Part shown: piece by piece, positions 1 to 62,690 of the stretch
How positions within the stretch are numbered: the stretch's first letter is position 1
How the letters are laid out: every line of letters begins with the position of its first letter
DNA from: Heliocidaris erythrogramma
Taxonomy: Eukaryota; Echinodermata; Echinoidea; Camarodonta; Echinometridae
NCBI GenBank assembly: GCA_025617745.1
Contig: CM046858.1
Location: 36,597,119 to 36,661,118, forward strand
Length of the DNA stretch: 64,000 nt
Direction: 5' to 3'
Notes under the pieces: model-generated
The model's database searches: none
What the model was told of the DNA's origin: nothing
What the model saw: the letters and a program-made list of their open reading frames with translations, nothing else
Made by a program: the position numbers and the translations under genes

Positions 1-1595
1 TGAATGCTGTTTTCAGTACCTGTAGAAGAACGATCTTTTACTGTCGGGTTGTTCATAGAAATAATAGGAATGCATCTGTTGTCCATTTCATCAAAGTCAC
101 CTTGCAAGGAGAAGCTTAGTAGTTCACCTAGATTTTCCTGACAGGAATGCATGTTAGTATTATCCGCACCATGCTGCTCTCTAGCTGAAATGTCAGTCAG
201 TACGGTCCTCCTGGGTCGAGACCGTACATGAGGGACGTTGGTCATTTCAAGAGATCCCATACCTTCATCACCTCTTCCTGCGTTCGAATTGATCTGAAAT
301 TTGCATTTCTTTTTCAAGTAAGATCGGTAAGAACCTCGAATATTGATGAGGCACATACAAATGGTCGACAAAAGCGCCAATGCCGATACTATGGCCAATG
401 GCAGAGTAAGTGATGAACATGTATTTTCTCCCCCTTTCGAGGTTAAATGTGTTAGCATCATGTTGCTCGTAGTAACGTGAGTTGAACTCGTCTGTTCTGA
501 AGTTGGTGATTTGGAAGTATTTCTCGTAATATTCACACTGATGGTTTGACATTGCTCTTCATCTGTTGCATTGCTTAACGGACTTTTGTGTGAAACCGAT
601 AAGGTATAAAAACTATGATTTCCTAAAGCTAAACTTCCAATGCCATATAGTTGTAGAGTGTTTGATTCATTTTTCTCTTCACCACAGATAAAAGAGATGC
701 GATTGGCACCAGCTATATATATTGTTACTGTTTGATCGACGGGTATAAAAATACCACTGACATTGTGCCACCATGTTAATGGAACATTTTCGTGCGCAAC
801 GCAACATTCAAAAGTTGCATTTTCAGCCTTATCATCTATAATGGTGTATAGTGTAATTGGCGAGAAATTGCACATTTTTGTGTCATTAATATTCTGACGC
901 GAAATAACACATTTGTCTGGGATAGTTCTTTCAAAATAAATGTCTCTAGGATCAACGTATATACTGAATTCGTTGGTGAGGTTGAGTTGACCGTCGAAGT
1001 TCATATTTGCAACCTTATGTTCATAAATGACATGGTTTCCTGCAGTTACAAGTTGTGCTTTCTCCCCATCTACCACTTGCATCCATTGACAGGACATCTG
1101 CACCTTGTTTCTTTCCTTGTCGAAAATAGTCAAACAAGTGGGTTCTCTATATTCGACCGTCAAATTCAATATCAAAACTGTACACAGGTACTGATCACCA
1201 TTATATAATGCGATGACGTGTCTCCCCGTGTCACTCTGTTCAATGAAAGAAATTAAGATATTGAGTGTGCCATTAATTTCTTCAGTCAAATCGTAACGTG
1301 TATCATCAAAAGCAGCGTTTCCTCCGGTGAATTCCAGAGTGCCATCGTATCGCCTTTTCCATATTGATTCTCCCTTTGTCCACACAAGTGATTGCTGACT
1401 GAATAACTGGGTACCTCGAGAGACAATCAGAGAAAAGTTACGTCCGTTCACAACGTAAACTGATTGTTCCCGGCCTCGCTGGTCAGCGCACCAGAATAGT
1501 GCACTGTCCTCAGAAAATGTTAATTTGGAAAAGCAATGCAATATCAAAAGTAAATATAAACATTTCCTTCCGTCGAAGAAGCCCATCCAATACAT
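1..1595 (-). CDS. Receptor gene A: type I membrane receptor, 3' end outside window
   Basis: Reading leftward from an ATG at 1595-1593, the frame stays open for about 531 codons to the window edge, so the tail end and stop are not seen. It encodes a hydrophobic signal sequence (about residues 11-25, ending LTFSED), an ectodomain with the family cysteines (FWC, YLCTV, PTCL, MSCQW, CCVAHE, FICGE) and many N-x-S/T sites, then one membrane helix near residues 396-418 followed by a basic KKKCK stop-transfer. The visible tail, about 110 residues, has no SH2-type tyrosine motif; those of its relatives lie nearer the C-terminus. Conserved family blocks include the W in SLVWTKGES, the SDTGRHV turn and AGNHVIYE. 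It is the most divergent full-length copy; only relic L (39.1-39.4 kb) is close to it. Cell-surface recognition is inferred, ligand unknown. Whether the unseen 3' part is intact cannot be told. Confidence 0.8.
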   Translation of the reverse strand, partial: MYWMGFFDGRKCLYLLLILHCFSKLTFSEDSALFWCADQRGREQSVYVVNGRNFSLIVSRGTQLFSQQSLVWTKGESIWKRRYDGTLEFTGGNAAFDDTRYDLTEEINGTLNILISFIEQSDTGRHVIALYNGDQYLCTVLILNLTVEYREPTCLTIFDKERNKVQMSCQWMQVVDGEKAQLVTAGNHVIYEHKVANMNFDGQLNLTNEFSIYVDPRDIYFERTIPDKCVISRQNINDTKMCNFSPITLYTIIDDKAENATFECCVAHENVPLTWWHNVSGIFIPVDQTVTIYIAGANRISFICGEEKNESNTLQLYGIGSLALGNHSFYTLSVSHKSPLSNATDEEQCQTISVNITRNTSKSPTSEQTSSTHVTTSNMMLTHLTSKGGENTCSSLTLPLAIVSALALLSTICMCLINIRGSYRSYLKKKCKFQINSNAGRGDEGMGSLEMTNVPHVRSRPRRTVLTDISAREQHGADNTNMHSCQENLGELLSFSLQGDFDEMDNRCIPIISMNNPTVKDRSSTGTENSI

Positions 1596-1879
1596 CTTAA
1601 CGAATTACTTAAAGGTTCTCGTCGTAAAATTCTGACGTTTAATGAATACAATGCAGCATTCACTAACAAAAAATTTAGAACTTTGCAAAAGAAAGATTGA
1701 GATCCTGGAGAGACAGTGCTGCAATGAAATGAGTTCAGCTAAATATTTTCCATATTGAGATAGCTCTTAAACACCCTTATCTGTTCCGTTTTCATGTCTG
1801 TACAATAGAAAAAGTGAGTGTGATACAAAGTAGCCATATACCGCATAGGAGACTGGAATTAATGATACAAAGCAGCACA

Positions 1880-1886
1880 TTTTATA
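1880..1886 (-). promoter_or_regulatory. TATA box of receptor gene A
   Basis: The minus strand reads TATAAAA in the context GCTTATAAAATG, about 285 bp upstream of the gene A ATG. The same box and flanks recur at 39657-39663 upstream of relic L, so the promoter was duplicated with the gene. The predicted start site is roughly 25-30 bp downstream, which leaves a 5' leader of about 255 bp if there is no intron. Confidence 0.5.
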
Positions 1887-1889
1887 AGC

Positions 1890-6485: not shown

Positions 6486-8336
6486 TCAGAAAAAAGTATG
6501 AACTGATGTGTTAATATATAATTCCCCGGCATCCGTCAATTCATCAGTAGGATTTGCAATCATGTTACTGTAGAAGTCAACGTGGTTCAGGACCAGGGAA
6601 TCTGAGCCATTTCTTTGAACGAGAGAGTGTAGACCGGGTTTGGGACCAGGGGCCCTTGGGTCGTCATTGTCTGACTCCAAATATGCAATTTTGTTGGTCT
6701 TTCGAGTCATGTCCGGTTTGGCGTACAAGGCATCTAAATCTCTCGTTGCTTCATGGTTAGTATTAGAACCGCCCGTGGTCGTGCACCCAGTGGCACCCTT
6801 ATGATCTTCCATATTCGAACTGCAATTACTAGAACGGTGACCAATACACGTACTATCAGGCTTTCCATTTTGTCGCTGCGAATGTAAGCTTGAAGGTCCA
6901 TCGTGATGCTTAGGGAATGGTGCTTTTGTTTCTTGTTTTTGTTCATGCCCTCCGTGGTCTAATGGACCCTGACGAGCAATAGCGCCTCGAAGATCAGAAT
7001 CCGTACAGGTTTGAAGGGGTTGTAACTGAACACCAGCATCACCTATCGTTACTCTTCCAAAATGGTATCGATATTTTCTTAAAAGAATATGGTAACAGTT
7101 GACAATACCAGTGCCAAGGCAGATTATTATAGAAATGACTAACATTACCCAAACCCAAGTCGGAGCTTTATTTGCCATGTTATTCCCTGTTTTGGGAGCC
7201 TCTGATGTTAAAGTCGTTTCCATCATTTTGCACTGACTGGTTACAGTATCTAATTCTCGATTTTCCTTTGGAGGTCGTTTGTCTTTCTCAATGTTTGTAA
7301 CATTCAATAGGAAGTTCTCACATCTTAAATTCTCGAGTGAATTGTGAAATTCTTCAGATGACACTGCAATGTTTAACAGTTTGCCTTCTATAAGATTAAC
7401 AATTACTATACGATGTAACAACAACGTGAGATTTTCATTTTGTACACCGCAGAAAAAAGGAAAGCGTTCGAAACTGATAAAAAATAATTTATCAGGAAGA
7501 TTGAGTTGAAGGAGACTGCTACCATTATTGTACCACCACGATATATCTGCACCGGTATCTTCTGCAGTACAACATTCAAAACGCCGACTTTGGTTATTCC
7601 TTATTACTTGCTCTTCTATTGGTAGAAAATTACAAGTCTTATTATTAGCTCTTTTGCTATTAGAAATATGACACATGCTCGGAACAATTCGTTCATCATG
7701 AATGTTGTCAGGAGGAAGGTAAAAAGTAAATTTATTAGTTACATTGAAATCGCCTTCGAAATTCATCTGAGGAGTTTCGTATTCATACACCACCTGATTT
7801 CCTGCCAGAAGTTTTGCTTGATCCCCGAAGTTCACCTGCACCCATTCACAAGACATCTGCAATCTTCCACTTTCTTGGTCAAGCACCGTTGAGCAGATCG
7901 GTTCTGCAGTCTCGATGGTTAAATTAAACATTGCAACCACACAAAGCGCTTGTGACCCCTGATGAATTTTGACGATGTGTTTTCCTGAATCTCTCAGTTC
8001 AGGGAAGGCAATATACAAATCAACAGCGTTCCCTCCTGCCACTTTAGCAAACCTGTAACGATTTTGATTAGCAGATGTATTGTCGATATTGTCTAATGTC
8101 TGATTGTCTAGTGTTATCCATTTTGACCACACCAGTGTTTGGGCGACGGTCAACGGATCTCTCAGAAAAAATCTCAGAGAAACATTTTGTCCGTTGACTG
8201 CCGTGAATGCTTGTTCTTGCTTGTCACCACACCAGAATAAGTCACCCTCACAAAATGTCATTTGGAAAACAGCTTGAAAAATGATAGAAAGGAATGGAAC
8301 CATTTTCCTTTTCAATGGAGAGCAAGATCGAGACAT
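6486..8336 (-). CDS. Receptor gene B: intact single-exon membrane receptor with SH2-motif tail
   Basis: The frame is open from 8372 (628 codons), but the start is placed at the in-frame Met of TSTMSRS (8336), because that Met is conserved in copies E and F while the first is not. Using 628-codon numbering: signal sequence about 24-41, ectodomain to about 400 with cysteines 48, 144, 160, 175, 234, 247, 267/268, 308 and 351 and about nine N-glycosylation sites, membrane helix about 405-426 (WVWVMLVISIIICLG), then a tail of 200 residues. The W82 block and DSGKHIV (128-134) look like a divergent Ig-V fold with unusual cysteine placement; that is inference. Tail motifs: Y550-AKP (YxxP, Crk/Nck type), Y601-SNM (YxNM, fits Grb2 and PI3K p85), Y619-INT (YxN). 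No intron is needed. It is one of only two complete undamaged copies in the window. Confidence 0.9.
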   Translation of the reverse strand: MSRSCSPLKRKMVPFLSIIFQAVFQMTFCEGDLFWCGDKQEQAFTAVNGQNVSLRFFLRDPLTVAQTLVWSKWITLDNQTLDNIDNTSANQNRYRFAKVAGGNAVDLYIAFPELRDSGKHIVKIHQGSQALCVVAMFNLTIETAEPICSTVLDQESGRLQMSCEWVQVNFGDQAKLLAGNQVVYEYETPQMNFEGDFNVTNKFTFYLPPDNIHDERIVPSMCHISNSKRANNKTCNFLPIEEQVIRNNQSRRFECCTAEDTGADISWWYNNGSSLLQLNLPDKLFFISFERFPFFCGVQNENLTLLLHRIVIVNLIEGKLLNIAVSSEEFHNSLENLRCENFLLNVTNIEKDKRPPKENRELDTVTSQCKMMETTLTSEAPKTGNNMANKAPTWVWVMLVISIIICLGTGIVNCYHILLRKYRYHFGRVTIGDAGVQLQPLQTCTDSDLRGAIARQGPLDHGGHEQKQETKAPFPKHHDGPSSLHSQRQNGKPDSTCIGHRSSNCSSNMEDHKGATGCTTTGGSNTNHEATRDLDALYAKPDMTRKTNKIAYLESDNDDPRAPGPKPGLHSLVQRNGSDSLVLNHVDFYSNMIANPTDELTDAGELYINTSVHTFF

Positions 8337-8624
8337 GGTTGATGTGTCCGTAGGTGATTGTTTTGATACCAAAGTTGGATTTGTAACTAATCTTCAGTAA
8401 AATGTATTTTAACGAGAGAAGGTCACGAGTTTGCCGTCAGTAGTATCCGACGAGCTTTCTAAACGGGAGTGTGGAAATGAACTATATGCAACGTTTTTTT
8501 CGTATCAGTAGGAATAAGTAAGGAAACTTTAAATGATTAAATAATCTATCAAGTCATGACCACAAAAGCAATTGACTGATGGGAAGGAATAAAGGTTCTA
8601 CCATTGATGTAAAGTAAGCCCCTC

Positions 8625-8633: not shown

Positions 8634-8639
8634 GGGAGG

Positions 8640-9635: not shown

Positions 9636-9639
9636 TACG

Positions 9640-10719: not shown

Positions 10720-12320
10720 AATCATAGACTAGAAGCGGAGTGTTTACTAATAGGTTTTTTTTATTCCAAGAGTCATCGTGACCAACCTCCGAAGAAGTAA
10801 CTTTTGCCAGATTATACAAGCCCTTGCCTGACTCAGAGGCGGATGCAAGAGACTGATTATTCATTAGTGTCCTGGTGACCAGATGATTTGTTTTTACGTC
10901 CAGGGAAATCACTGTCATTACCTACGGAACAGTATGCGCTGTCAAGGAATGAAGCAATAGCGCCGACAGAATTGGCGCTAGTTCTATTTTCCGTGTTATC
11001 GATGTCTTTTTCCTTTAAGATCTTCACCTCTTGCCTTTCTGAAATGATGAGCTTTGCCAATCTTGTCCCTTTCCATCCTTCCGAGTCGCAGAGGAAGATT
11101 AGGTGGAGTATCTTCATGTTCTGGACAAGGGATATCTCGACTAGTTAGAGAACACCTGTCAAAGACAACTTCGCCGTGCTCAGGATCTCCCCCATTTGCC
11201 TTTCTGAAAAAATGAACTTTGCCGATCTTGTCCCTTTCCACCCTTCCGCGTCGCAAAGGAAGGTTAGGTGGAGTATCTTCATGTTTTTGACAAGAGATCT
11301 CTCGACAAGTTAGAGGACACCTGTCAAAGATATACAGACTGAAGCGTGTTCATGCTAACCTCATGTGAACGCTATTTTGGACGCGATATTGATACTTGAC
11401 TAAAAAAAATCGTTTGTAGCACTTGTTAAAGCAGATTCCAGTGGATATAACGATTCTGAACATCAATGCTATTGCCAATATTACACCTACTTAGTTAAGA
11501 AGATACTTTGCTTCCCTTTTTTCATTTATAGCATTCGTTTTCATCACCTCACTCACGACACAATTTGACGAGGAATCATTATCTATTGATGTAAAAATGT
11601 AGATGTGGCTCTTGTTGTATTTAAAGGAAGAGTTTGACGTTCAACCACTGAAGAATTGTACGTTTTTCTGTGGAATTGTTTATTCCACTATGGACTTCAT
11701 GAATATCAGGTGAGACTAAAATACCGCAGTGCCCTTTGGGAAAATGTGTAAAGTTGTAATGGGATGGAGTTTCAGCAATGAGTGATCTGCGTCTTTCCCA
11801 CAGAAAAGGGACATATTCGACATCGGAAATGAAATGCGGTTTCATGGCATTGATTGGCAACAGACCGCTATCAGTGTTGTACCACTATGTGAGTGGGTTG
11901 TTTTCGTTCGCGAAGCAACATTGCTATTCAGCAATTTTTCTTGATGATTTCGAAGGCTGTGACGTTCTATCGGTAGCACGTTGTTTGCACTTTAATCCTT
12001 TCATTAGAAAAAAAAAATCATTTGGCGTTCTCTTCTCATTAGATATGTTTTGAATATCGGCGTATATACTGAATCTATGAGGTAATGTATAATGAGTCTG
12101 ATCCTCTCTGTTAAAATGTGCGGTACAACGGGGACCTGCATTAACGATGGTCAATTCCACCAAAGCTGTACATACATCAGTTGTTCCCTGAACAACTAAA
12201 TTGATGTGACTTTCTGAATACATCTCTCTTCTAGAAAGTCAATCAATATTTGAAAATTGTTCTGATTGAATTTATATGTCAACTAGTACCATAAGCCGTT
12301 ATCCATATCCCTCGGACTTT
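10720..12320 (-). pseudogene. Receptor relic M: old, frame-broken copy
   Basis: Pieces in three frames line up in order with the receptor family. At 12.2-12.1 kb, SESHINLVVQG, VCTALVELTIV and PRCTAHF match the GQHVVKIHQG, LCTIVILNLTV and PICS blocks; LPHRFSIYADI follows. At about 11.9 kb, QQCCFANENNPLT, a stop, then WYN matches CCVAHENVPLTWWHN of gene A. At 10.9-11.0 kb the tail piece GAIASFLDSAYCSVGND matches GAIVSTASNPDSTYCSVDD of gene D, keeping the ITIM-like SxYxxV. A weak LYN...HDDSW piece near 10.8 kb may be the end of the tail. A stop inside the ectodomain, frameshifts and a local duplication show it is dead. It combines features of the A and D subtypes, so it may be an early-branching copy. 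Confidence 0.75.
11029..11330. repeat. Tandem duplication of about 168 bp inside relic M
   Basis: The segment starting TTGCCTTTCTGAAA at about 11029 is repeated from about 11197. Both copies contain CTTGTCCCTTTCCA, the GTCGCA(G/A)AGGAAG block, AGGTGGAGTATCTTCATG and ACACCTGTCAAAGA. It duplicates part of the former tail-coding region just upstream, in reading sense, of the SAYCSV motif. Confidence 0.85.
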
Positions 12321-12329: not shown

Positions 12330-15030
12330 CTAAACATGTTTCACTAAAGGCAGACGTTGGGTTTATCCAACGGAGGGTTTGGTTTAAGGATAATACCTCC
12401 TTAAGATGAAATAAATTTTGATATTTGAGAGCTTTAACCTGTTTTCACTTGTAATTGCACATATCATCTTCTGAAAATGAATGGTTGAAAGGAGCTTGTA
12501 CACATAAAACACATGAAAATGTTGCAAAAGGAGTTTACGAAGCCTATGTAACATATTGGACGGTCATAGGAGATGTTCTTTGAAAATAAAACTTGCTATA
12601 CAAAAACAAAAACAAAAACAAAAAATTTGATGGCGATTGATTCATCTTCTACCGAATCTTAGAAGATAATATAAATTCTAACGAGTTGTTTCATCTTTAC
12701 GTAGAAAATAGATCTGAATACTATTCTAACCCGAACTATGCCGAAAACTATCTTTCTAAAGTATTGCCTGACTAAAAAAAGAAAGAAAAGAAACGCACTT
12801 AGTCAGATTAAAAGCTGAACATAATAAATTACGTTTGATTGTAACCACAATCAGCAAACTAATTTCTCTCTTTCTTTTTAGAGGCTTTCATCCTCTTATA
12901 ACTCTCCGCTCAGTAGAGATAGTATGAGAGTATCAATTGAACTTGTGTCAATACATCATCATTCTACAGGTAGGACTTGACATATAGTTTAAGTGGCCTG
13001 CGATCTTACTTTTATATTTCTTTAATTAATTAACAAAACAGAAAGTCGTAGGCCAACTTCACAAATCAAGTAGAGTGAGAACGTTAAAAAACCTCATCAA
13101 TCTTCTTTCTTTTCTGCTCAAAAAATGAAACATGTGCGGCGCACACTTAATTGAAATTTTGATTCTTCTTTAATGACAGAATTGGTTGTACCTACAGTTT
13201 AGGAAGCGAAAAGGAAATTGGAAAGAATCATGTTAAAAAAATAGTCTCATGAAGTTTTCCATATATTAAAAGATGTTTGTAGTTTGGTATTCCATCAATG
13301 ATATCCGGTGAATTTTACCGTAACTATATGTAATGAATGCTAGATGAGGGCAATATACTGCCCTACGCTAGGACCTTTCCACCACGGCGGCTCCCCGCAC
13401 ACCAATCTCGAGACTTCGCACGGAGATGGCATGTGTGCCACTGTGTGTGAGTTTTGAACGTGTGTATGGTGCATAGTGCACGCTGAAGTTGTTGGGAGTT
13501 TATATCCCTGACCCGGCACCTAAATTATTGTTTTTCTCTAATTTGTTTAATATGCCACATCTTGACAGCGCCTTTTATATTGCTAGTATCTTGCTATTTA
13601 TCAACAAAAATCCAATAAATCTGACAAATTTATGAAGGCTTACCAAAACTAAACATCACCTTTAAATATACTGTTCCATAACAGGTCAGCATAGTTATAT
13701 AAAATTTAAGTCACTGTACACGGGCATTAGTGCACTTATATCTTGAAAGTTATTGTAGAATTCAATGGTAAAATAATTCCTAAAAAATCTATATTAAAAT
13801 GGAAGAATATATGGTCATACACAAACATGTACCACGCACACACATATATCAATAATTCGATTCATTTAATTTCTATAAATAAAGGGAAAAGAAAATAAAC
13901 ACAAATCCAAGAACACATAGCAATTAAAAGAATGGCACATCTATTGGAACTAAACATACTCAACTCTATCTTTAGCCAGAATTTTACAACAAATTTAACC
14001 CCTATATATGATCTCTGTGGTCCCAAAGAATAACTTCAATCATCATGAGTATTTAAACTAGGGTATATTATGAATTTAGGTAAAAGGATGGAGGCCACAG
14101 GTCATGGACGTTTTCCATTTGTTTTCGGCTATCCCGAGCAAAGCTACGGTAATGGAACAATAGTTGACCTATTTTTTTCTTTTCCACAGAAAAAGGACGT
14201 ACTCGACATCGGACCTCTGTTTTGTACCTAACAGTCTGTAATGACTAAGTTGTTGGAACTTATGATGATTTGGTCGATTTTATAAAATAGTGGAAAGGAA
14301 ATAAAGTCTTTATGAATCAAATCCGTTCATATTGAGATAGAGAAGGTTGTGAACACGATGGTTTAGTGACATCTATAACACGAGTCTTTCAGGTATAGAT
14401 CAACATAATTTTTGATCCAGTAGTAGGAAGCTTACTGTAATTACCGTACATATGATAATTTTTCAGGACAGATGACGCTAACAGAATGACTAAACATGCC
14501 ATTAAAAAATGTGTGATTAATGTTATTCCTTCAAATTAGTCCAACAGAATTTTTCATTTCATTTTATCTACATAATCCTTGAAGCACATTTCATTGTGAA
14601 CGTTATAGGAAAAATAAATGATAAAGCAATTCTACGAATTAGGAAAAAATGGAAGAAATTAAGGTCAAACATATACATCGCACACGTACATGACTTATAT
14701 CAAATGTCAATTTCATTTCTTCTAATTTTGTTTTCAGCTATTCCATGCAGAGCGAGGGTAATAAGGCATTAGTTTACATACTAACTACCTTTGATGATTA
14801 ACATGTGGGGAATTACAATGATTTGGTTTTTGGATATCAATATGAAAATTGAGGAAGGGAATAAAAGTCATAAAACCATCAAATCAAATATTGAGATACA
14901 GAGGGTTGTGAACACGATGGATCACTGACATTTTAGACCGTGTCATTCATAATAGAGGTCACCATCATTTGTCGATCCAGTATTGGGATCGGTATTATAG
15001 TTACCATACATATGATCATTGTTCAGGACA
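12330..15030. other. 3' flank of pseudogene C, no gene seen
   Basis: This block is homologous to 31.6-33.1 kb and 49.5-50.7 kb, the DNA downstream of copies D and G (shared GAGATAGAGAAGGTTGTGAAC, CGTACATATGATCATTGTTC and GCGAGGGTAATA). A less AT-rich piece at about 13340-13510 is not in the other two flanks and may be an inserted repeat. No supported gene. Confidence 0.6.
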
Positions 15031-15132
15031 GATGATTATAGGCCTTCATTCTGAGCGAGATTACTTTGAAAGAAATCCTCCCCAGGAGGGCTTGGGTCAT
15101 CATAATCCGACTCCAAAGACGTCATTTTCTTA

Positions 15133-15308
15133 TGGGGTGTTGCAAGAAAGTTGCGATTGATTGCAAGTTGCAACTGATCGGTACTGACCAATCAAAATCA
15201 TTGTTGCAAGCGCATCTTCTTGAATGGGCAGACCGTGAACCATTCAGAATGGCTGTTCTAATTTGCTGTACAATTTGCAATTGATTGCAACTTTCTTGCA
15301 ACACCCCA
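15133..15308. mobile_element. 176-bp Harbinger-type MITE with TTA target duplication
   Basis: Terminal inverted repeats begin TGGGGTGTTGCAAGAAAGTT and are near-perfect for over 30 bp. TTA lies on each side (15130-15132 and 15309-15311). The paralogue G has the uninterrupted site at about 50880 with one TTA, so both ends are fixed by comparison. A 3-bp TTA duplication is typical of PIF/Harbinger elements. It is too short to code for a transposase. Confidence 0.92.
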
Positions 15309-15335
15309 TTAGTCTTTTGGCTCATGTCGGGTTTA

Positions 15336-16538
15336 AGGCGCTGTAACACTCTACAGGCGCTGTTACACTCTAGCGTATAGAGCCAGCGTATGAGGAACGT
15401 ATGGACTTTTTGGGCATACGCTGACATACGCTGAAACACTCTAGGGGTACGCTGGAATACGTTTGTAGTACGCCGGGGTACGTCGGTGTACGCTGATGTA
15501 CGCTGACGGCCAAATTTTTTTTTGAACATGCACAAAAATTTTCAGCGTATGCCGACGTATGAATTTAACGCTCCTCATACGTTTCTCATACGCTGAACAC
15601 GCTAGAGGTACCCTGAAGGTACGTTACTCATACGTCGAGTACGCTTCTCATACGTTGAAATTGAGTGGGTCAAGAAAACTAGAGTTAGAGGAGCGTATAA
15701 TGAACGTGTGTCTGACGTGTGTCTAACGAATGGCTAACGTACTCAACTTATGCCTAACGTGTTCTGAGCGTACAGCCAACTTATCCCATGTGTATTACAT
15801 GCGCTTCTCATACGTTGAAATTGAGTGGGTCAGGAAACATAGCGTTAGAGGAGCGTATAATGAACGTGTGTCTGACGTGTGTCTAACGAATGGCTAACGT
15901 TATGATGGTAGTATATAAAGTCTCACATTTCCAAACCTGTTACAGTTGGCAGTTGTGTATGCTAGACACAGAAGAAGAAGGCGTAGAATGAGACGTGCGT
16001 GTGTGTGTGTGTGTAATTGGGTTTTACAGACGTGTATCAATCAGATATGATTATTTACGTCTGGGACCGACCTTTAACGTCACCATCCGAAAGACGTGAC
16101 TCAGTCTCGAACCTGGGTCCGCTGAATCAGTTTATAACTTCCTCTGGTAGCTGGATTACAGGCGCACGCCACAACGTCCAATCTGGGTGCCACCTTTTAT
16201 ACCCCCCGCTGTGTACGCTCCTCATACGTTAGGCTGACGTTCCGCATACGTTTGTCATACGTCGGAGGTACGCTGATATACGTTACTGATACGTTACGGT
16301 ATACGTCCAACTCAAATACACATCACATCACATACGCTCACATACGCTGACATACGCTATGCGTACGCTACTCATACGCTACTCATACGCTGACGGTATG
16401 CTGGGCTCACGTTACTCTAACGGTCATTAACCGAAAATCGACCTCATACGCTGAAAAGTTGTGCGTATAAACAATTTTTAGAAATATTCGATACGTTCCT
16501 CATACGCTGCCTCTATACGGTAGAGTGTGACAGCGCCT
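15336..16538. mobile_element. 1.2-kb non-autonomous Harbinger-type element carrying a minisatellite
   Basis: The ends are AGGCGCTGTAACACTC and its inverted copy (CACTCTAC/GTAGAGTG inside), with TTA on both sides (15333-15335, 16539-16541). The undisturbed site is GGGTTTAGCG in copies D and G. The left end carries a small extra copy of its first 18 bp or so. The interior is filled with degenerate units around CATACGCTGA / TACGTTGAAA, including a longer duplicated block at about 15645-15740 and 15802-15900, and holds a SINE-like insert. It sits inside the SLYAK codons of pseudogene C. No transposase. Confidence 0.88.
16040..16200 (-). repeat. SINE-like segment with a 7SL/Alu-domain-like block
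   Basis: On the minus strand 16172-16147 reads GTGGCGTGCGCCTGTAATCC followed by AGCTACC, very like the Alu domain of SRP (7SL) RNA. About 35-45 bp on comes GGTTCGAGACTGA (B-box-like, 16113-16101) and then CGGATGGTGACGTTAAAGG with GGTCCC (about 16089-16063). A (GT)n run lies beyond at about 15990-16012. The order fits a small RNA-derived SINE with a conserved body. The 7SL assignment is by eye and unproven; a tRNA-like head is the alternative. Confidence 0.45.
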
Positions 16539-19144
16539 TTAGCGTACAGAGAATGTGGGTTTGTTGTCGGTTTTGGGTTGCTTTTAATGAATAGCCCCTC
16601 TGTGTTTAGATCGACTGATAGTGGAGATGATTCTTTCATGGTCAATGGATAATAATAAAAACCCTCATGATCAGTGTTCATTTGAAGGGAACGTACTAAA
16701 GATTTTTAATCCGAATCTTTGGTACCGGTAGTTGTCGAAGTGCGTTGGACATCATTGACTGAACAATATGTACTCACGGGGCTTGATGCTGTAAAAACGA
16801 CTGCTCTGGAATTGTGCCTTCTGATGTTTTTCGTACCGACGACAATGTTCATTTGTCAGTAGCTTGACAGTGTCTTTATCGCTAAAATTCTTATGATGAG
16901 TGACACAATTCTTATCCAATGCTACCAAATTACGCCGCGATGGGCGGGTTGGAGGTCCGCCTCGTCGATTAGAACAGAAGGACAACACGTCAAGGTTGGT
17001 GCAATCCTCGTTGTTGTCTGGTTGTCGTTGTGGATAAGAACGTCATATCCACAGACTCTGCTCCTTCGCTGACCAGTCCTGTCGTAGTAACCGTGTGGAT
17101 TCCTTCATCTAACTCATATTTTGATTGCTATAGCTCTTTTCTGAGAAATTTTTGGTAACATTTGGCGAAGCAACCACAGATGCTGAACGCTAATTCTAAT
17201 GCTGATAGAACCACCAGTGAATATAGCAGTGCATTATTGTTTGGGCACTCTGATGACAAAGTTGCGCTTAAACTAATTTGAACAAGTGTCTCGTTCGATG
17301 TGCCATAGTTCAAAGAAGTTCCAATGTGTTCCTCAATTGACTTAGCACTCTCAGTTGTATTTTCACAAGTTAAAGTAACAGCGGATGTGTTTTACCATTC
17401 AAGTTTTGATGGAATGGAAATATTGCATTTCTGGTTTTCTTGTAATTGTGAAATCATAATGCCACCCAGTATCATCTGAAAATGATCTTTCTCCTCCACA
17501 TAAATAAGTGCGATTTGCTTGATATCCGACAAAAAATCTCGTCTGAATGATTAAGGGGATGCTGATAACCTCCAGTAGTGTACCACCGTGACAAGACCTT
17601 TGTCTCTTTGATTTTGCAGCATTCGAATACGGCAGACTGCTTTTGGTCTTTTCCAATCGGATGTGCTTGAATTATGGGGAATGTACATGTTTTATTCCCC
17701 TCTCGGCTGGAAACAGCACACACGCTAGACATCTTCTTTTCGTCAAAAATATTTTCAGGATCAACGAATGCACTGAATTTATTCGTTAAATTTAACTCAC
17801 CAGTGTTGGACATCAGAGGTGTTTCATATTCATACACCACCTGATTTCCTGCAAGAAATTGTGCACGATCCCATACGTTCACTTGCACGCACTGACAAGA
17901 CATCTGTAATTTTCCGCTTTCTCTGATGAACATTGTATAACATATAGGTGCTGTACCTTAACTTCAGGATTACAATTGTACAAAGTGATTGTGGCCCCTG
18001 GTGAATCTTGACGACGTGCTGTCCCGAATCGTTTCGTTCAGTAAATAAACATAATAAAATTGGTTTCGTTGATCTGACTTAAGGTATAATGACCAGCATT
18101 GAGAGATGCATCGGTAGCACATTCTAAAGAACGGTTGTTTAGTGTTTCACATACTGACTCTCCTCTTGTCCACACAAGCGACTGACTACTTTCCATCGTA
18201 TCTCTCAGATTAAACCTAAGAGAAATATTCTGTCCATTCACTTTGTGTATTGAATGTTCCTGCTGCTGGTTGCACCATAAAGTACTATCTTCAGAAAAAG
18301 TCACATGGATCAAAGATTGCAAAATACAAAAGAAGACAAATTTTCTCCGTTCCACATTAATGCTCTTGTGGGACATGGTAATCCTTCGGTATCTTGTAGC
18401 AAAGTCTATTTCTAGAAGGTTTCTAGAATTATTTAAATAAAGGTATCTTATTATCAAGAAATCCACTGACTTAAAGATGGGGCTCTTGTTCCTCTTTCTC
18501 AGGAAGAAACTAGATAATGAGCGCCATAATGTTTGATTAACATGATTGAAATGGTGAAAGCAGAGACAAACTACTTGTGCCAAAGACATGAAAGACGGGG
18601 GTCTTTATGAAGCGTTTTTTCTATCACCACCTTCCTGAATCACAATGTTCTTAGCAAGAACTAACAAATAGATATTGGCTGAAAGACCCAGACTGACAGT
18701 GTCTCTCATTGGATAACAACAGAAACGACTTTCTAAGGGGATGAGCCATCGTCTGTAAAATAAAGCCTACATTATATTTCTTTGTTAAGTGAAAGTGCTA
18801 GTCACGTTCGGTTAATCTTTAAAGGGGATGCTGATCCAAGAAAAATGAAGTCTGACGAAACTGAGAGCTACTTCAGATATTTCAAAATTGCTTTTAGTCA
18901 TTATGTTCCCCCACCCTTCCTTTCCCAAACAATATATTGATGATTGATACTTTCCCCTCTCTTCTTCAGGGTAAAATAAAATGTATTACTTTCTAACCTA
19001 CAAAGCCTATTGTTTAAAAGGGTGATTTCGAGAACCATCACATTTCGGTTTTACATTACGCGACTTTTGTATTGACGCTATTCAAAAAAGCAAACAGACA
19101 GCATACTTCTTGTTTAAATCAAAGCCTGACCAGGTGTATTTATG

Positions 19145-28344: not shown

Positions 28345-29852
28345 AGTAGAGAGTATGAGCAGATGTATTGAATATCCTGCATCCGTGAATTCATCAGTAG
28401 GATTAACAGTCGTATTACCATAGAAGTAAGCATGGTTCAGGGCCAGGAAATCTGAGGCAAATCTTTAAACGAGAAAGTCTCGACCGGGCTTGGAACCTGG
28501 AGTCAGGTCTTGTGTCGTTATAGTCCGACTCGAAAGATGTAATTTTGTTGGTCTTTCGGGTGGTATCCGGTTTGGCGTACAATGCCTCTATATTTGTCGC
28601 TGCTCCATGATTAGTACTGTAATCGGTTGTAGTGCGCCCAGTGGCATCCTTATGATCTTCCAGCCTCTCCAGTTTGACGCTGCCTATGTAAGTTTGGAGG
28701 TCCATGTTGATGATTATGGAATGGTGCCTTTCTTCCTTGTTTTTGCTCATGCCATCCCTGGTCTAAGTTCGCAATGTCAGGAGACTGGACACCATCGTCA
28801 CCTATTGTTACTGCAAAATCCATTTTGATCCTCTCATTTATTCCTTTTACAAAATTGTATGATATTTTCTTGAAACAATGTGGTAACAGTTGAGAAATCC
28901 AGTGGTAAAGCAGAATATTAGAGAAAGGGCGATAAGAATACCCAAACCCAAGTCGGAACTTTAGTTATCATGGTTATCTTGGTACATGTATGTTCTGGAA
29001 GAATCTGATAACACAGTCGTTTCTGTCCTTTTACACTGTGTGGTTATTGTATATAATTCTGGATTTTCCTCCGGAGTTTGTATTGAATGGTTATATCCTT
29101 CAGATGATGCTGATATAATTTAGATATGGTATATTAATGGTCTTTTAAAATTAACATTTCTAATATTACACAATATCAATCGAAATTGATAACAGATAAT
29201 TTATCAGGAAGAATGATAGGAAGGGGACTGCTACAATTATTGTACCACCGTAGTACAACAGTTACATTGAAATCGCCATCGAAATTCATCTGAGGAGTCT
29301 CGTATTCATACACCACCTGATTTCCTGCCAGAAGTTTTGCTTGATCCCCAAAGTTCACCTGCACCCATTCACAAGACATCTGCAATGTTACGCTTTTTTG
29401 TTAAGCACTGCTGAACAGATCGGTTCTGTAGATTCAATGGTTAAATTAAAAATGGCAACCACACAAAGCGCTTGTGTCCCCTGATGAATTTTGACGATGT
29501 GTTTTCCTGAATCTCTCGGGTCAGTAAAGGCAATATACAAATCAACAGCGTTCTCTCCAACCACTCTAGTCAACTTGTAACGTCTTTGATTAGCAGATGT
29601 ATTGTCGATATTGTCTAATGTCTGATTGTTCAGAGTTATCCATTTTGACCACACAAATGTTTGGGCGTCGGTCAACGTATGTCTCAGAAAATATCTCAGA
29701 GAAACATTTTGTCCGTTGACTGCCGTGAATGCTTGTTCTTGCTTGTCACCACACCAGAATAAGTCACCGTCACAAAATGCCATTTGGAATACAGCTTGAA
29801 AAATGACAGGAATGAATGGAACCATTTTCCATTTCAACGAAGAGCAACACAT
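28345..29852 (-). pseudogene. Receptor pseudogene E (B-type)
   Basis: It starts at the conserved Met of TSTMCCS (29852), with a signal sequence and a first ectodomain almost identical to F (shared RRYKLTRVVGENAVDLYIAFT). A frame slip at about 29390 ends the frame after VLNKKA. The next block MSCEWVQVNFGDQAKLLAGN runs to DFNVT and then jumps to WYNNCSS, a deletion of about 330 bp relative to F. Further deletions follow before the membrane helix near 28.93 kb, which is also out of frame. The tail keeps ALYAKPDTTRKTNK and SDYNDTRP, but the final YINT motif is deleted. Clearly dead; the upstream TATA-like box is retained. Confidence 0.9.
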
Positions 29853-33134: not shown

Positions 33135-33225
33135 ATGTTTGAACTGTGTCATTCATATACAGGTCACCGTCATTTGTCGATCCAGTATTGCGATCGGTAT
33201 TATAGTTACTGTATACATGATCATT
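33135..33225 (-). other. Fossil C-terminal YxN module downstream of the gene D stop
   Basis: Just past the D stop, the frame reads DHVYSNYNTDRNTGSTNDG and then DLYMNDTV. This aligns with the C-termini of other subtypes (PTDELTDAGELYINTS in B; TDESTSGCELYINTPG in J). It holds two YxN motifs and is no longer in frame with the ORF because of an upstream 59-bp deletion. The same block survives after the stops in C and G. Confidence 0.7.
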
Positions 33226-39121: not shown

Positions 39122-39363
39122 TTGTCGAAAATAGTCAAATGGGTTTTGTACATTCGACGGTCACATGCAGTATCAAAACTGTACATAGATAATGCTTACT
39201 CAGAAGCTGAGTTTCTCGAGAGACCATCAATTAAAAGTTACGTCCGTTCCCTGCCTCGCTGTTCAGCACACCTTTCTTCAGAAAATGCTAATTTGGAAAA
39301 GGAATGTAATATCAAAACTAAATATAAAGATTTCCTTCCGTCGAAGAAGCCCGTCCAATACAT
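39122..39363 (-). pseudogene. Receptor relic L: 5' remnant of an A-type gene
   Basis: Bases 39120-39363 match the 5' coding part of gene A (start ATG equivalent at 39363, the KCLYLLLILHC-like signal region, then FRE/VNGRNF-like codons), with about 240 bp missing inside and nothing beyond the matched 5' part. The A-type upstream region and TATA box are kept (39657-39663). Confidence 0.8.
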
Positions 39364-42949: not shown

Positions 42950-44844
42950 TCAGGAGAAAGTATGAGCAGATGTGTTGATATATAATTCCCGAGCATCTGT
43001 CATTTCATCAACAGGATTAGCAATCATGTTACCATATAAGGCAGCATGGTGCAGGGCAAGGCAATCTAAGCCATGTTCTGGAGCGAGAGTGTCTTGATCG
43101 GGTTTTGGACCAGGAGCCCTGGGGTCGTCATAGTCCGACTCTAAAGATGTCATTTTGTTGGTCTTTCGGGTCATGTCCGGTTTGGCATACAAGGCCTCTA
43201 CATTTGCCGTTGCTTCGCGGTTCGTATAAAAAGCCGTGGTAGTGCGCCCATTGGCATCCTTATGATCTTCCACATTTGAATTTTGGTGGCCAATACAATT
43301 ACTTTCAGCCCCTCCAGTTTGGCGCTGCGTATGTAAGCTCGGAGGTCCATGTTGATGATTAGAGAACGGTGCCTTTCTTTCTTGTTTTTGTTCACCCCCT
43401 CCCTGGTCCAATGGACCCTGATGAGCAATAGCGCCTCGAAGATCAGAATCCCTGCAGTTTTGAAGGGGCTGTAATTCTAAGTTCGTAATTTCAGGAGACT
43501 GGGCATCATCGTCCCCTATTGTTACTGCAGAATCCATTTGGATCCCCTCATTTAGTCCTTTTACAGTATTGTATCGATACTTTCTTGAAAGAATTTGGTA
43601 ACAGTTGACAAATCCAGTGGCAAGACAGAATATTAGAGAAAGCGCTAATATTACCCAAACTAAAGCAGGAATTTTAGTTATCATGGGTATCTTGGTATCA
43701 TCTATTCTGGAAGCATCTGATAGCGTAGTCGTTTCTATCTTTTTACACTCAGTTATCATGTCTACTTCTGGATTTTCCTCCGGATGTTGTATATCTTTCT
43801 TAATGTTTCGAGCGTTAAGCGAAATGTTCTCACACCTTGGGCTCTCGATTGAATTCTTATCTCCTCTCCAAATGCTGCTGACATAGATATGGTGTATTGT
43901 TGGTCTTTTACAAAATAAACATGCAATAACAATGGGAGATTTCCATTTTGTACACTGCAGAAAATAGAAAAGTGTTGGACATTGGTAAAAAATAATTTAA
44001 CAGGAAGACTGAGTGGAAGGAGACTGCTGCCATTATTGTACCACCATGCCACAGCACTGGTATTTTCTGTACTACAACAGTTTAACACAAAACGCTGAGT
44101 TTGGTTATTCCTTATTACGTACTCTTCTATTGGCAGAAAATTACAAGTCTTATTAATAACTCTTTTGCTATTAGAAATATGACACATTCTCGGAACAATC
44201 CGTTCATCATGAATGTCAAGAGGAAGGTAAACAGTAAATTTATTAGTTACATTGAAATCGCCATCGAAATTCATCTGAGGAGTTTCGTATTCATACACCA
44301 CTTGATTTCCTGCCAGAAGTTTTGCGTGATCCCCAAAGTTCACCTGCACCCATTCACAAGACATCAGCAATCTTCCACTTTCTTGGTTAAGCATCGTTGA
44401 GCAGATCGGTTCTGTAGTCACGATGGTTAAATTAAACACTGCAACCGCACAAAGCGCCTGTGTCCCCTGATGAATTTTGACGACGTGTTTTCCTGAATCT
44501 CTCAGTTCAGTAAAGGCAATATACAAATCAACAGCGTTCTCTCCAACCACTCTAGTCAACTTGTAACGTCTTTGATTAGCGGATGTATTGTCGATATTGT
44601 CTAATGTCACATTGTCAAGTGTTATCAATTTTGACCACACCAATGTTTGGGTGTCTGTAAACGGATCTCTCACAAAAAATCTTAGAGAAATATTTTGTCC
44701 GTTGACGGCCGTGAATGCTTGTTCTTGCTTGTCACCACACCAGAATAAGTCGCCCTCACAAAATGTCATTAGGAATACAGCTTGAAAAATGCTAGAAACT
44801 AATGGCATAATTTTAAATTTCAACGCAGAGTAAGATCGAGACAT
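42950..44844 (-). pseudogene. Receptor gene F (B-type), complete except for one frameshift
   Basis: It starts at the conserved Met of TSTMSRS (44844); the frame is open further upstream but the extra residues are not conserved. Signal sequence, ectodomain with all B-type cysteines, AGNQVVYEYETPQM and WWYNNGSSLLPL. The frame shifts at about 43858-43868, where GGAGAGGAGATAAG seems to hold one GA too many (or one base too few). The other frame then continues through the membrane helix (ALVWVILALSLIFCLATGF) to the end NTSAHTFS. The tail has ALYAKPD, SDYDDPRAP, LYGNM (YxNM) and ELYINT. With a single lesion it could be a recent pseudogene, a null allele or an assembly error. Confidence 0.88.
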
Positions 44845-50400: not shown

Positions 50401-50700
50401 TCAAAATTATACATCGCACACGTACATGACTTATATCAAATGTCAATTATTTGATTTCTTATAATTTTTTTTCAGCTATTCCATGCAGAGCGAGGGTAAT
50501 AGGGTATTAGTTTACATACTAACTACCTTTGATAATTAACATGTGGGGAATTACAATGATTATTTGGTTTTTGGACATTAATGTGAAAATTGAGGAAGGG
50601 AATAAAAGTCATAAAACCATCAAATCCGTACATATTGAGATACAGGGGGTTGTGAACACGATGGAACACTGACATCTTAAACGACCGTGTCATTCATATA
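47405..50700. other. Intergenic: pyrimidine tract, MITE and 3' flank of G
   Basis: CT-rich stretch at 47490-47630, then AT-rich DNA and a poly-G run at 48480-48505. From about 49.56 kb it matches the downstream flanks of C (13.84 kb on) and D (32.15 kb on). No supported gene. Confidence 0.55.
48606..48858. mobile_element. MITE-like element built of GGTCCTTATGAATAGC words
   Basis: The left end CGGGGTCCGCTCGCTATTCA and the right end (complement GGGGTAACCTCGCCAGTCAT) form imperfect inverted repeats. Inside, TATGAATAGC and its complement GCTATTCATA occur about ten times, on both strands. No coding. Confidence 0.65.
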
Positions 50701-50785
50701 CAGGTCACCATCATATGTCAGTCCATTATTGGGATCGGTATTATAGTTACTGTACATAATTATGATCATTGTTCAGGACAGATGA

Positions 50786-52738
50786 TTATAGGCCTTCATT
50801 CTGAGCGAGAATGCTCTGAAAGAAATCCTCCCCAGGAGGCCTTGGCTCATCATAATCTGACTCCAAAGACGTCATTTTCTTAGTCTTTTGGCTCATGTCG
50901 GGTTTAGCGTACAGAGAATCTGGGTTTGTTTTAGGTTTCGGGTTGCTTTTAATGAATGGTCCCTATGTGTTTGGATCGACTGATAGTAGAGATGATTCTT
51001 TCATGGTCAATGGATCATAATAAAAACCCTCATGATCAGTGTTCATTGGAAGGGAACGTACGAAAGATTTTGGATCCGAATCTTTGGTACCGGTAGTTGT
51101 CGAAGTGCGTTGGACATCATCGACTGAACAATATGTACTCTCAGGGCTTGGTGCTGTAAACACGACTGCTCTCGCATTGTGCCTTCCGATGTTTTTATGA
51201 TGAGGGACACAATTATTATCCAACGCTGCCAAATTACGCCGCGATGGGAGGGTTGGAGGTCCGCCTTGTCGATTAGAACAGAACGACAACGCGTCAATGT
51301 TGGTGCAACCATCGTTGTTGTCTGGTTGTCGTTGATGCGGGATAGACTGGGGCAGCTCAGTAGCCCTGTCAGGTTCAGGAGGTTGTGTAGATAAGAACGT
51401 CATATCCACAGACCAGGGAAGTGCACAGACTCTGCTCCTTCGCTGACCAGTCCTGTCGTAGTAACCGCGCGGATTCCTTCATCTAACTCATATTTTGATT
51501 GGTATCGCTCTTTTCTGAGGAATTTTTGGTAACATTTGGCGAAGCAACCACAGATGCTGAACGCTAATGCCAATGCTGATAGAACCACTAGCGAATGTAG
51601 CAATGCATTATTGCTTGGGGACAAAGTTGCGCTTAAACCAATTTGAAGATGTGTCTCGTTCGATGTGCCATAGTTCAAAGAAGTTCCATTGTGTTCCTCA
51701 ATTAACTTAGCACTCTCAGTTGTATTTGCACAAGTTAAAGTAACAACGGATGTGTTTGACCATTCAAGTTTTGATGGAATGGAAATATTGCATTTCTGGT
51801 TTTCTTGTAATTGTGAAATCATAATGCCACCCAGTATCATCTGAAAATGATCTTTCTCCTCCACATAAATAAGAGCGATTTGCTTGATATCCGACAAAAA
51901 AATCTTGTCTGAATGAATAAGGGGAAGCAGATAACCTCCAGTAGTGAACCACCATGACAAGACCTTTATCTCTTTGATTTCGCAGCATTCGAATACGGCA
52001 GACTGATTTTGGTCTTTTCCAATCGGATGTGCTTGAATTATGGGGAATGTACATTTTATTCGAGTTCCCCCTCTCGCTAGAAACAGCACACACGCTAGGC
52101 ATCTTCTTTTCGTCAAAAATATTTTCAGGATCAACGAAATTTAAATCACCAGTCTTGAACATCAGAGGTGTTTCATATTCATACAGCACCTGATTTCCTG
52201 CAAGAAGTTGTGCACGATCCCCTACGTTCACTTGCAACCATTGACAAGACATCTGTAATTTTCCGTTTTCTCTGATGAACATTGTAGAACATATAGGTGC
52301 TGTACCTTCAACGGTTAAATTCATGATTACAATTGTACAAAGTGACTGTGGCACCTGGTGAATCTTGACGACATGCTGTCCCGAATCGTTTTGTTCAGTG
52401 AACGCAATAAACATAATAAAATTTGTTTCGTTGATCTGACTTAAGGTATAATGACCAGCATTGAGAGATGCATCGGTAGCACATTCTAAAGAACGGTTGT
52501 TTAGTTTTTCACATACTGACTCTCCTGTTGTCCACACAAGCGACTGGCCACTTTCCATCGTATCTCTCGTATTAAACCTAAGAGAAATATTCTGTCCATT
52601 CACTTTGTGTATTGAATGTTCCTGCTGCTGGTTGCACCATAAAGTACTATCTTCAGAAAAAGTCAGATGGATCAAAGATTGCAAAATACAAAAGAAGAAA
52701 ATTTTTCTCCGTTCCATATTAATGCTCTTGTGAGACAT
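50786..52738 (-). pseudogene. Receptor pseudogene G (D-type)
   Basis: It starts at the conserved MSHKSINM (52738); an open frame continues upstream to 52951, probably not translated. The order is as in D: signal sequence, WCNQQQEHSIHKVNGQN, GESVCEKLN, GNQVLYEYETPLM, WWFTTGGYLLPL, a membrane helix near 51.53-51.6 kb, and a tail with ESTYCSVDD (ITIM-like), EGFYYDPLTM, SLYAKPD and SDYDEPRPPGEDFF. Lesions: a small deletion at about 52138 (in the FSAYVDPEN region), a frameshift near 52070, a 17-bp insertion at about 51413-51429 (absent from C and D) and a GAG-to-TAG change at about 50967. The homologous frame ends with TAA at 50786-50788. Dead, but it preserves empty sites for the MITEs in C. Confidence 0.9.
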
Positions 52739-54585: not shown

Positions 54586-54599
54586 TATCAGAAGAATGT

Positions 54600-60958: not shown

Positions 60959-60961
60959 GTT

Positions 60962-61692
60962 TTATGACATAACTGTAGTTTTTTGCCCTTTGAACCCAAT
61001 GCGAAACCCCTGTTGAAATCCGTCACGCAAAAATTTTGCATCTTGTGCATTGGGATAACGCCTCAGAAATGTGATCAAACGCTCGGGTTTAATTGGCGTT
61101 GGTGCCAGCGTTCTTGACCCGAGTCGACCCCGTGGACATCGGGTGCTATTGTGAGAGTCTCGCCCGCATCTTTCACACGCGTGTGTGAAGACACACGATT
61201 TTTTGGTACAACCGCCACCATTGAACGCGTAGCAGTACCTTGGGCCACTCTGCCGAGCACTGTACCCGCGACCAGCGCCACCCCGCCCCCTTGGGACAAT
61301 TCCTGCTCTCCTGGCGTTCCCGTAGGTACGAAAATTCGCCCCGCGGCTGGAGTCGCTATCGGCTGGTGCGTGCCAGCTCAGTTGCATGAATGGTGCCGCT
61401 GCCGTCATCAACCATAGTTCACTGTCACCCTAGCCCAAGATCGTGTGGGCTCTTGTTGTTGGCGGAGGCGAAACTGTGTATCATATGTCCGCCACCCGTA
61501 TCCCCCAAATCTTGCCGCGGTCCGAACAATGTCGATATATTTAAATAACTCACGAGCTCTGTTCCCGTGTTTTTCAGTACATATGGAGGCGAAGACCAGA
61601 AAGGCGCTCGTCCATTGTTCTATTGACGTGATTCGCGGGGGTTTGTTTTGTGGTTGTAGCTGCATGGTCGAGCCTGAGAACGTTAAGACCAT
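60962..61692 (-). pseudogene. DIRS Gag-like protein with CCCH and CCHC fingers
   Basis: It begins MVLTFSGSTMQLQ and includes TSIEQWTSAFLVFASICTEK, a block common to DIRS-type Gag. A one-base slip at about 61410 changes frame. The second part has Gly/Arg-rich RGRGGAGRGYSAR, then a C-x7-C-x4-C-x3-H finger and a C-x2-C-x4-H-x4-C zinc knuckle (CERCGRDSHNSTRC), both with all ligands in place. Nucleic-acid binding in the element particle is the family role. Confidence 0.8.
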
Positions 61693-61819
61693 ACCTGTAT
61701 CGTTACCCTGTGTTTCCCCAAGTCATCTCCCACGGTTGGCAATACTGGGGGAGAACCAAACCAAGACTTGTGTCTTGATGCTATTTTCTAAAGAAAACCG
61801 ACATCATACTACTTGTTTA

Positions 61820-62690
61820 TTAAAATCAAAGCCTGACCAGGCGTATTTATATACAATTCAACGCCACTTGTGGATTCATCGGTAGGACGTAATTGCTACA
61901 CTGTTGCCATAGACGTGGCAAACATCATCGGGATTCAGGACAGATGGAGATAGTTCATCTTCCTGAACTAGAATGATTTGAAAGAACTCATCTCCAGGAG
62001 GTCTGGGTCATTATACGTTATTGATTTTCTGGCTCATGTCGGGTTTAGCGTACAGCGCCTCTATATCCGGAGCTGGTGAGCTGGTGAGCTGGTAGCCATC
62101 TTATCCCCTCTAGATGCCTTCTGTTGAAGTGATGAGGAAATGGTTGAATCATACTGTACGATTCATGACTGTGCAAACTCGAAGGAATGCCTTCGACATC
62201 GTCCACCGAGCAATACGTACCATCTTGGTATTGTGTGATGGCACTGGCCATAGGTGCATTGTGCTGAGCAGTGCTTCTAATGCCACCCCCTGGACGGCCT
62301 CCAGACTCCTGTTCAACCATTTATCGTCGTGAAGGCAGGTTTGGTGGCCCACCTAGCAGTCCCGAGCATGACGCCATATTTTCTTGTTTAAAGCAATGCT
62401 CCGTTTCGTCCGGTGGGCGCTGATTAAATACAAAACCTTTTGGACCCAGAATCCACATCTTGTTGGGGTGTTTGATGTGTAAAGGTCGTCATTACTAGGG
62501 CTCCTGCATCATCGTCTTCCGTTACAGTTGAACCTTTCTGCATCGAATTCCTTCTCACCAGATATTGATGTTTACCAGGGATACTGTAGTAGCACTTCGT
62601 ATTGCAAGAACCAATGATGAAAGCAAGCCCTGATGCTGATATTGCGACCACTGCTATCAGAATAGGATAATCTAAAGTTCTCACTCAATT
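61820..62690 (-). pseudogene. Receptor relic I: membrane helix and tail fragment
   Basis: Duplicate of H, but it keeps more of the 5' side: DYPILIAVVAISASGLAFIIG (membrane helix, about 62.6 kb), CYYSIPGKHQYLVRRNSM, STVTEDDD, then frame changes to QDGTYCSVDDVEG, a short deletion, LYAKPDMSQKINN and the end of the tail. A 10-bp or so loss at about 62010 removes SDY. No ectodomain. Non-functional, with lesions partly different from H. Confidence 0.85.

Follow-up and report, generated by a model that had tools for sequence, protein, structure and literature searches.

Vertebrates, tunicates and cnidarians are already known to have clusters of germline-encoded immunoglobulin (Ig) receptors with tyrosine-bearing tails. 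In vertebrates, the paired receptors (KIR, LILR, NITR and SIRP) are clustered Ig genes with both long-tail and tail-less members, exchange of parts, and birth and death of copies. Here we describe a family with these same features in a 64,000-nucleotide stretch of the genome of the sea urchin Heliocidaris erythrogramma (assembly GCA_025617745.1, 1.064 Gb in 26 contigs), namely C6:36597119-36661118, where C6 is contig CM046858.1; the whole of this stretch is referred to as the window. Unlike the vertebrate receptors, the sea urchin family shows no excess of strict immunoreceptor tyrosine-based inhibitory motifs (ITIMs), is encoded in one exon and has non-canonical V-set cysteines. The tunicate Botryllus has a multigene family of type I receptors, FcoR, which combine a V-type Ig domain and two more Ig domains with a single helix and a long tyrosine-bearing tail; their loci lie in pairs and undergo birth and death (PMC12065747). 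FcoR proteins have features of their own in the same account, among them a sushi domain, a length of 520-610 aa, tails with ITIM or hemITAM (half an immunoreceptor tyrosine-based activation motif) and alternative splicing across exons (PMC12065747). The urchin receptors differ in their single coding exon, in their YxxP/YxN tails and in the absence of a Pfam Sushi match at E<=0.1 in any of the 32 members scanned, although the divergence of their second domain could hide one. The Alr genes of Hydractinia are described as a clustered 41-gene Ig superfamily (IgSF) set with unusual V-set and I-set domains (PMC11999971); they are cnidarian, have a reported role in allorecognition, and are set beside the urchin family by description. 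What is new here is the echinoid host, the single-exon form, the relocated cysteine pair, the YxxP/YxN tail and the exchange of modules.

The SpTransformer proteins of sea urchins are small secreted effectors, unlike the receptors described here, which are membrane proteins with Ig domains. Their genes (also called 185/333) nevertheless offer a likeness, being a sea urchin immune gene cluster with unstable repeats and mosaic genes (PMC13428168, PMC5103432). Recognition in echinoderms is usually told through Toll-like, NOD-like and scavenger receptors and the SpTransformer effectors (PMC13428168, PMC3308324), and a 2026 review again names TLR, NLR, scavenger receptors and SpTransformer (PMC13428168). 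Echinoid membrane receptors with V-type Ig domains have been noted as the sea urchin IgV-IgC1 transmembrane receptors (Hibino 2006, Rast 2006), known here from their summary in PMC3308324. No description of the present cluster was found in the open PubMed Central literature at the level of titles and abstract openings, which does not prove that it is unpublished.

Members of the family lie on the minus strand only, as judged across the window by a profile of its own copies and by tblastn with three long frames, and after blastx typing of the relics they number 11 (Table 1). An initial annotation had described a one-strand array of twelve or so copies; the single orientation stands and the count is corrected. 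Copy B, called intact there, is indeed open end to end, and runs from a signal peptide through a V-set-like domain 1 (D1), domains 2 and 3 (D2, D3), a stalk and one helix to the tail. The signal peptide, the single helix (by hydropathy) and the tyrosine tail are common to the copies, and copy A is open to the window edge, all as had been proposed. Copy D, likewise called intact, has an open frame but is missing 59 bases present in C, F, B and E, a deletion that costs it the last part of its tail. The open frames and the similarity of the copies are not due to chance, since tblastn gives E-values of 0.0 for B against E and 1.8e-153 for D against F, and since the longest frame was at most 179 aa across 780 mononucleotide shuffles of 39 extracted loci (chosen as matches).

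A genome-wide search, as the initial annotation had advised, was run with B and one distant member as protein queries and its matches were merged, giving at least 82 loci, mostly in one cluster on C6. By contig, C6 holds 77 (76 minus, 1 plus), C21 two, and C9, C16 and C20 one each; 74 of them form a main cluster at 36.519-37.470 Mb of C6, all on the minus strand. That 82 is a lower bound is seen from further places near 37.168 and 37.209 Mb and, in a tail search, near 36.586, 36.829 and 37.184 Mb. The tail-only search of the genome returned 52 matches, on C6, C9 and C21 only and oriented as the receptors there. By frame length, the match at 34 of the 82 loci contains no stop and lies in a frame of >=600 aa; one of these, the C21 copy, proved broken on reading, leaving 33. 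Among the 33, L053 is without its 5' portion, and the tail end is missing from D, L010 and L026. Frames of 425-599 aa occur at 13 further loci. The earlier statement that copies other than A, B and D are dead therefore holds within the window but not for the family, and the proposed birth and death of copies is supported. Passenger genes of a transposon or virus, as opposed to host receptors, could account for single-exon frames and for the reverse-transcriptase and GIY-YIG fragments nearby at 57-61 kb, but such an origin sits badly with a single orientation over nearly 1 Mb and with only 5 of 82 loci lying off C6, and viral contigs scanned with exact peptide patterns of B gave no match; we regard it as scarcely credible.

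Besides L001-L008, 49 receptor stretches were extracted. The protein alignment A6 comprises 32 sequences (29 long-tail, 3 tail-less) from these stretches and the window, picked for open frames, and leaves out broken copies and L050-L059; its rows are mutually related, so that the shuffle tests below overstate independence. A tree of 43 rows supports subfamilies A, B, D, H, J and K, and in it the tail-less L014 falls with B-type and L035 with H-type members, while L016 is weakly placed; L014, L016 and L055 have long branches.

Domain 1 is a divergent V-set-like Ig domain. It agrees with the V-set beta-sandwich fold and has both the Trp of strand C and the DxGx(Y) motif, with W70, D116 and G118 each present in 32/32 A6 members and position 120 occupied by His in 31/32 and by Tyr in one. 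A disulfide between strands B and F is usual in V-set domains, though not strictly required. In the urchin receptors it is missing in 32/32, with F, L or V at position 56 and V, I or L at position 122 (sites assigned by motif and strand), and is replaced by a cysteine pair in neighbouring edge strands, C36 (30/31) and C132 (32/32). Because the canonical pair is absent, we use the label V-set-like rather than V-set. The Pfam V-set model PF07686 matched four of the 32 members, all below its 26-bit cut-off (21.6, 15.1, 14.1 and 14.0), and the other 28 had no match at E<=0.1. Domain 3 bears a weak resemblance to Ig domains and is a candidate for that fold. Nothing convincing came from scanning A, B and D against Pfam and NCBIfam, a sub-cut-off Nrap match to D (Pfam, 0.014) being judged chance, or from a phmmer search of PDB sequences with B alone. 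A profile of A6 against PDB returned 11 sequences up to E 10, the best at 0.081, with Ig domains of myomesin, TIM, CD48 and PD-1 among them and none significant. The family had been called apparently undescribed: no named family was indeed found by sequence in Pfam, NCBIfam or PDB, but the kind of ectodomain can be named, V-set-like Ig in its first domain.

The phosphotyrosine-type tails first noticed in the window hold up across the family. In the 29 long-tail members YxxP occurs 52 times against 12.3 in shuffles and YxN 38 times against 10.9. Among the Src homology 2 (SH2) proteins, CRK prefers YxxP, GRB2 prefers YxN and PI3K prefers YxxM. The sequence YA(K/Q)PDM or YSKPDM is present in 28/29 long-tail members and Y(C/S)S(V/L/M)(D/E)D in 25/29, and a Y(C/S)S core is absent from four A6 rows, B, L010, L011 and L013, every one of them B-type. 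Four later open copies carry variants of the two cores, namely YCVLDD and YANPDM in L050, YSLVDD and YTQPDM in L051, YSSVED and YAQPDM in L052, and YCSLDD and YAEPDM in L053; counted over 33 copies, the exact YA(K/Q)PDM-type core is found in 29 and the Y(C/S)S-type core in 27. Three of the four B-type rows, and none of the 25 other long-tail rows, contain YxNM, which we take to be a CD28-like site. Copy B itself has YAKPDM, YSNM and YINT without the Y(C/S)S core, and D has STYCSV, YYDP, YAKPDM, YLES and YDDP. The YxxM and SxYxxV motifs reported earlier are thus real, the former in B (YSNM) and the latter in D, C and F (STYCSV); YxxM is not confined to B-type tails, as H-type rows read YCSM at the core. 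The strict ITIM, (S/I/V/L)xYxx(I/V/L), occurs 11 times in 32 tails against 6.2 (sd 2.4, maximum 13) in 500 shuffles, and for want of an excess an assignment to the ITIM-bearing inhibitory receptors was dropped.

Three tail-less members, L014, L016 and L035, share the helix STxAHGVSIxAFAF, which has a His inside and, unlike the vertebrate paired receptors, no Lys or Arg. L035 joins an H-type ectodomain (D1-D3 71, 72 and 59% identical to H-type) to the tail-less membrane module, so that long-tail and tail-less members share an ectodomain type. At the membrane end it shares 21/23 residues with L016 but only 5-6/26 with H-type, and the membrane ends of L014 and L016 agree at 15/23. The simplest account, for what is a short segment, would be one tail-less membrane module joined by recombination to different ectodomains. 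A very divergent open member of 434 aa without a long tail, L055 (C6:38161300-38163200), lies 0.7 Mb past the main cluster, and its helix carries a Lys near the end.

Domain 1, too, points to exchange. After Bonferroni correction, synonymous divergence of D1 is discordant with that of the rest of the gene in 9/72 pairs, which share members and so represent fewer than nine events. D1 may be the more diverged part, as in L031/L036 (0.45 against 0.06) and L043/L047 (0.60 against 0.16), or the less diverged, as in L020/L021 (0.03 against 0.27). This discordance is best read as exchange between paralogues. The ratio of nonsynonymous to synonymous divergence (dN/dS) is 0.26-0.34 among A, B and D, but with saturated dS (1.6-2.8), and 0.46-0.88 within the window. 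When 13 recent pairs without overlap are pooled, those with exchange among them, and one value is taken per region, it is 0.53 in D1, 0.42 in D2, 0.62 in D3, 1.23 in the stalk, 0.67 in the membrane region, 0.71 in the proximal tail and 0.56 in the distal tail. Coding constraint is seen everywhere but in the stalk. By the pooled values of these pairs, the V domain shows no positive selection on average. The proposal that signalling motifs outlast the decay of the ectodomain fares unevenly: the motif cores are retained in most members, but the recent dN/dS of the distal tail is not below that of the Ig domains (0.42-0.62). Mostly non-functional copies of one single-exon founder would be expected to lack coding introns, as the copies read do, and could explain why 49 of the 82 loci have no 600-aa open frame (some of these are tail-less forms) and why dN/dS within the window is as high as it is. 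We consider this very improbable given the 33 long open frames, the recent dN/dS of the Ig domains, the retained motif cores, and flanks copied both upstream and downstream of the genes, which speak for copying at the DNA level.

The whole coding frame does form one exon, as first proposed. The Alr genes of Hydractinia are multi-exon. The coding region is in one open frame in the 29 long-tail A6 members, apart from L042 (no in-frame signal peptide) and L010, L026 and D (tail end missing); a multi-exon coding region like that of Botryllus FcoR was not found, a statement about the coding part only, as a 5' leader intron is possible. Because flanks were copied along with the genes, the array grew by duplication of DNA blocks and not by repeated retroposition, although a retroposed single-exon founder is possible. 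In the window, 6198-9056 and 42673-45643 are duplicates of one another, and 36431-38461 corresponds to 61764-63873 as two separate pieces: 61764-62595 has 95% DNA identity to 36431-37292 (the H-type relics), and the flank 37496-38461 recurs at 62877-63873. Within subtypes the upstream regions can be aligned. In 14/39 members, from several subfamilies, a box of the CTCC(T/G)CC type stands upstream of the chosen start codon, mostly at a distance of 258-354 bases, and L024 (A), B and L010 have a TATA box near -291 to -302; these boxes suggest either an own promoter with a 5' leader of about 270 bases or a leader intron.

The order of the genes shows the same duplication. All 80 main-cluster loci and window relics were kept in order, 54 of them typed, of which 31 were permuted, while the 26 untyped loci stayed where they are. 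D has H as its next neighbour 7 times where 1.8 are expected (1/20,000 permutations reach it), B has D 4 times against 1.6 (766/20,000) and A has B 3 times against 0.9 (725/20,000). An excess of B followed by D (7 when untyped loci are skipped) fell to 4 with those loci in place, and only D followed by H stands out. Recurrent neighbours are explained by block duplication, through which adjacent different subfamilies are inherited together. L045 and L049, 300 kb apart, are 95% identical over 5 kb and have relatives around both in similar order; pairs of this kind may be uncollapsed haplotypes. Receptors for cell adhesion, neural wiring or gamete recognition that had expanded by chance would fit part of this picture, as adhesion and guidance receptors, too, can have IgSF ectodomains and YxxP/YxN tails, and expansion and recombination are possible for the proteins of gametes. 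A family of at least 82 loci, rich in relics and shaped by duplicated blocks and exchanged parts, is better suited to recognising changing ligands than to conserved adhesion, and we judge such roles unlikely.

We think it probable that these are germline-encoded, paired-receptor-like Ig recognition receptors, an expanded type I family that is immune in the broad sense. Their architecture is a V-set-like D1 above two more domains, followed by a stalk, a single helix and a tail of 160-300 aa. The V domain would bind variable ligands, microbial or self, and clustering of receptors would lead Src-family kinases to phosphorylate the tail. The phosphorylated tail could then dock SH2 proteins of the CRK type (at YxxP), the GRB2 type (at YxN) and, in B-type members, the PI3-kinase type (at YxNM), and the Y(C/S)S(V/L/M) core, absent in B-type, might dock another, possibly a phosphatase, giving different subfamilies different outputs. 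Tail-less forms would be decoys or depend on a partner. Gene conversion or unequal crossing-over among units of the same orientation would reshuffle the parts for binding and those for signalling, as happens among paired immune receptors. The mention of coelomocytes in the initial annotation fits, because the genome is that of an echinoderm. COX1, on contig C24, reads TGA as Trp and has AAA at three of four positions of conserved Asn and ATA at several positions of conserved Ile, in keeping with the echinoderm-type code. It is followed by tRNA-Arg, tRNA-Ser (minus) and tRNA-His and preceded by ND2 and 16S, an order found in sea urchins and sea cucumbers, and a Pfam Bindin match above its cut-off (239.9 bits) indicates a sea urchin.

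An allorecognition supergene has also to be considered, in which homotypic binding, or binding of the missing-self kind, would tell self from non-self tissue, a role suggested for Hydractinia Alr and Botryllus fester/FcoR. Sea urchins are solitary, and natural tissue fusion is not an obvious pressure on them, so that we doubt this reading and hold it to be improbable, even though the receptors recall FcoR in build and layout, with an ectodomain of V-type Ig, a tail with tyrosines, genes in pairs, and birth and death of copies (PMC12065747). Returning to immune recognition in the broad sense, a more specific form of it is a tentative possibility: the sea urchin may have its own KIR/LILR-like system on a non-canonical V-set, in which V domains, tails and the tail-less module are swapped among single-exon units by gene conversion and unequal crossing-over, each haplotype carrying its own activating, inhibitory and decoy set, partly as D-H pairs. 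If so, the single-exon design would ease conversion of whole receptors and of their parts and would offer, within the germline, another route than exon shuffling and V(D)J recombination. With a large cluster of V-set-like, tyrosine-signalling receptors in an echinoid, whichever form its role takes, echinoderms would gain a counterpart of the vertebrate paired Ig receptors and of the tunicate and cnidarian allorecognition receptors, and homology or convergence of such receptor systems would become directly testable, with the relocated cysteine pair and V-domain exchange between single-exon genes as specific, checkable features.

Table 1. Receptor copies, relics and the first domain of copy B in the window (window positions).
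Feature	Position	Strand	Remark
Copy A, A-type, open to window edge	3..1595	-	whole 674-aa open frame in genome (L024)
Copy B, B-type, intact 616-aa frame	6489..8336	-	605 aa from second Met, 616 aa from MSRSC
V-set-like domain 1 of B	7905..8246	-	
Old ectodomain relic, type unsettled	11368..12214	-	best blastx match a J-type member, 26% identity
Copy C, D-type, frameshifts and stops	14952..18376	-	tail end 14952-15137 separated from remainder
Copy G, B-type, broken, several lesions	28375..29846	-	
Copy D, D-type, open 665-aa frame	33224..35218	-	
H-type relic (tail and membrane region)	36509..37291	-	
A-type relic (5' end of coding frame)	39138..39363	-	
Copy E, B-type, one frameshift near 43.88 kb	42953..44844	-	
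Copy F, D-type, several frameshifts and stops	50683..52738	-	
H-type relic	61801..62663	-	

The relics at 36.5-39.4 kb had been candidates for a single A-type copy, which was rejected when blastx assigned the tail to an H-type member and the 5' end to a separate A-type one. About 1.4 kb of other sequence (15137-16526) interrupts copy C within its tail. Some 0.5 kb downstream of each of the D-type genes C, D and F there appears to lie a second, diverged (72-75%) version of that gene's tail-end region, the repeat pairs being 14228-14475/14781-15035, 32544-32685/33080-33233 and 50011-50203/50586-50785. Outside the window, the B-type L058 (C6:37.2 Mb), L059 (C21:48.86 Mb) and L013 share 95-98% DNA identity with one of them on another contig, which would point to a recent transposed duplication or an assembly artefact. 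Rfam and tRNA scans of the window gave no matches. A plus-strand frame at 57484-57957 matches GIY-YIG (PF01541, E 1.1e-4), a domain found in Penelope-like retroelements; retroelement-like pieces lie on the minus strand at 59412-61429, where 60303-60872 has a weak, sub-cut-off reverse transcriptase match (PF00078, E 0.006). A run of 500 N at 56153-56652 is possibly an assembly gap. Two minisatellite arrays with a 15-16-base unit (19157-19464 and 21810-22416) match each other in opposite orientation, and a dispersed repeat, 89% identical between its copies, occurs at 24110-24965 and 54439-55301.

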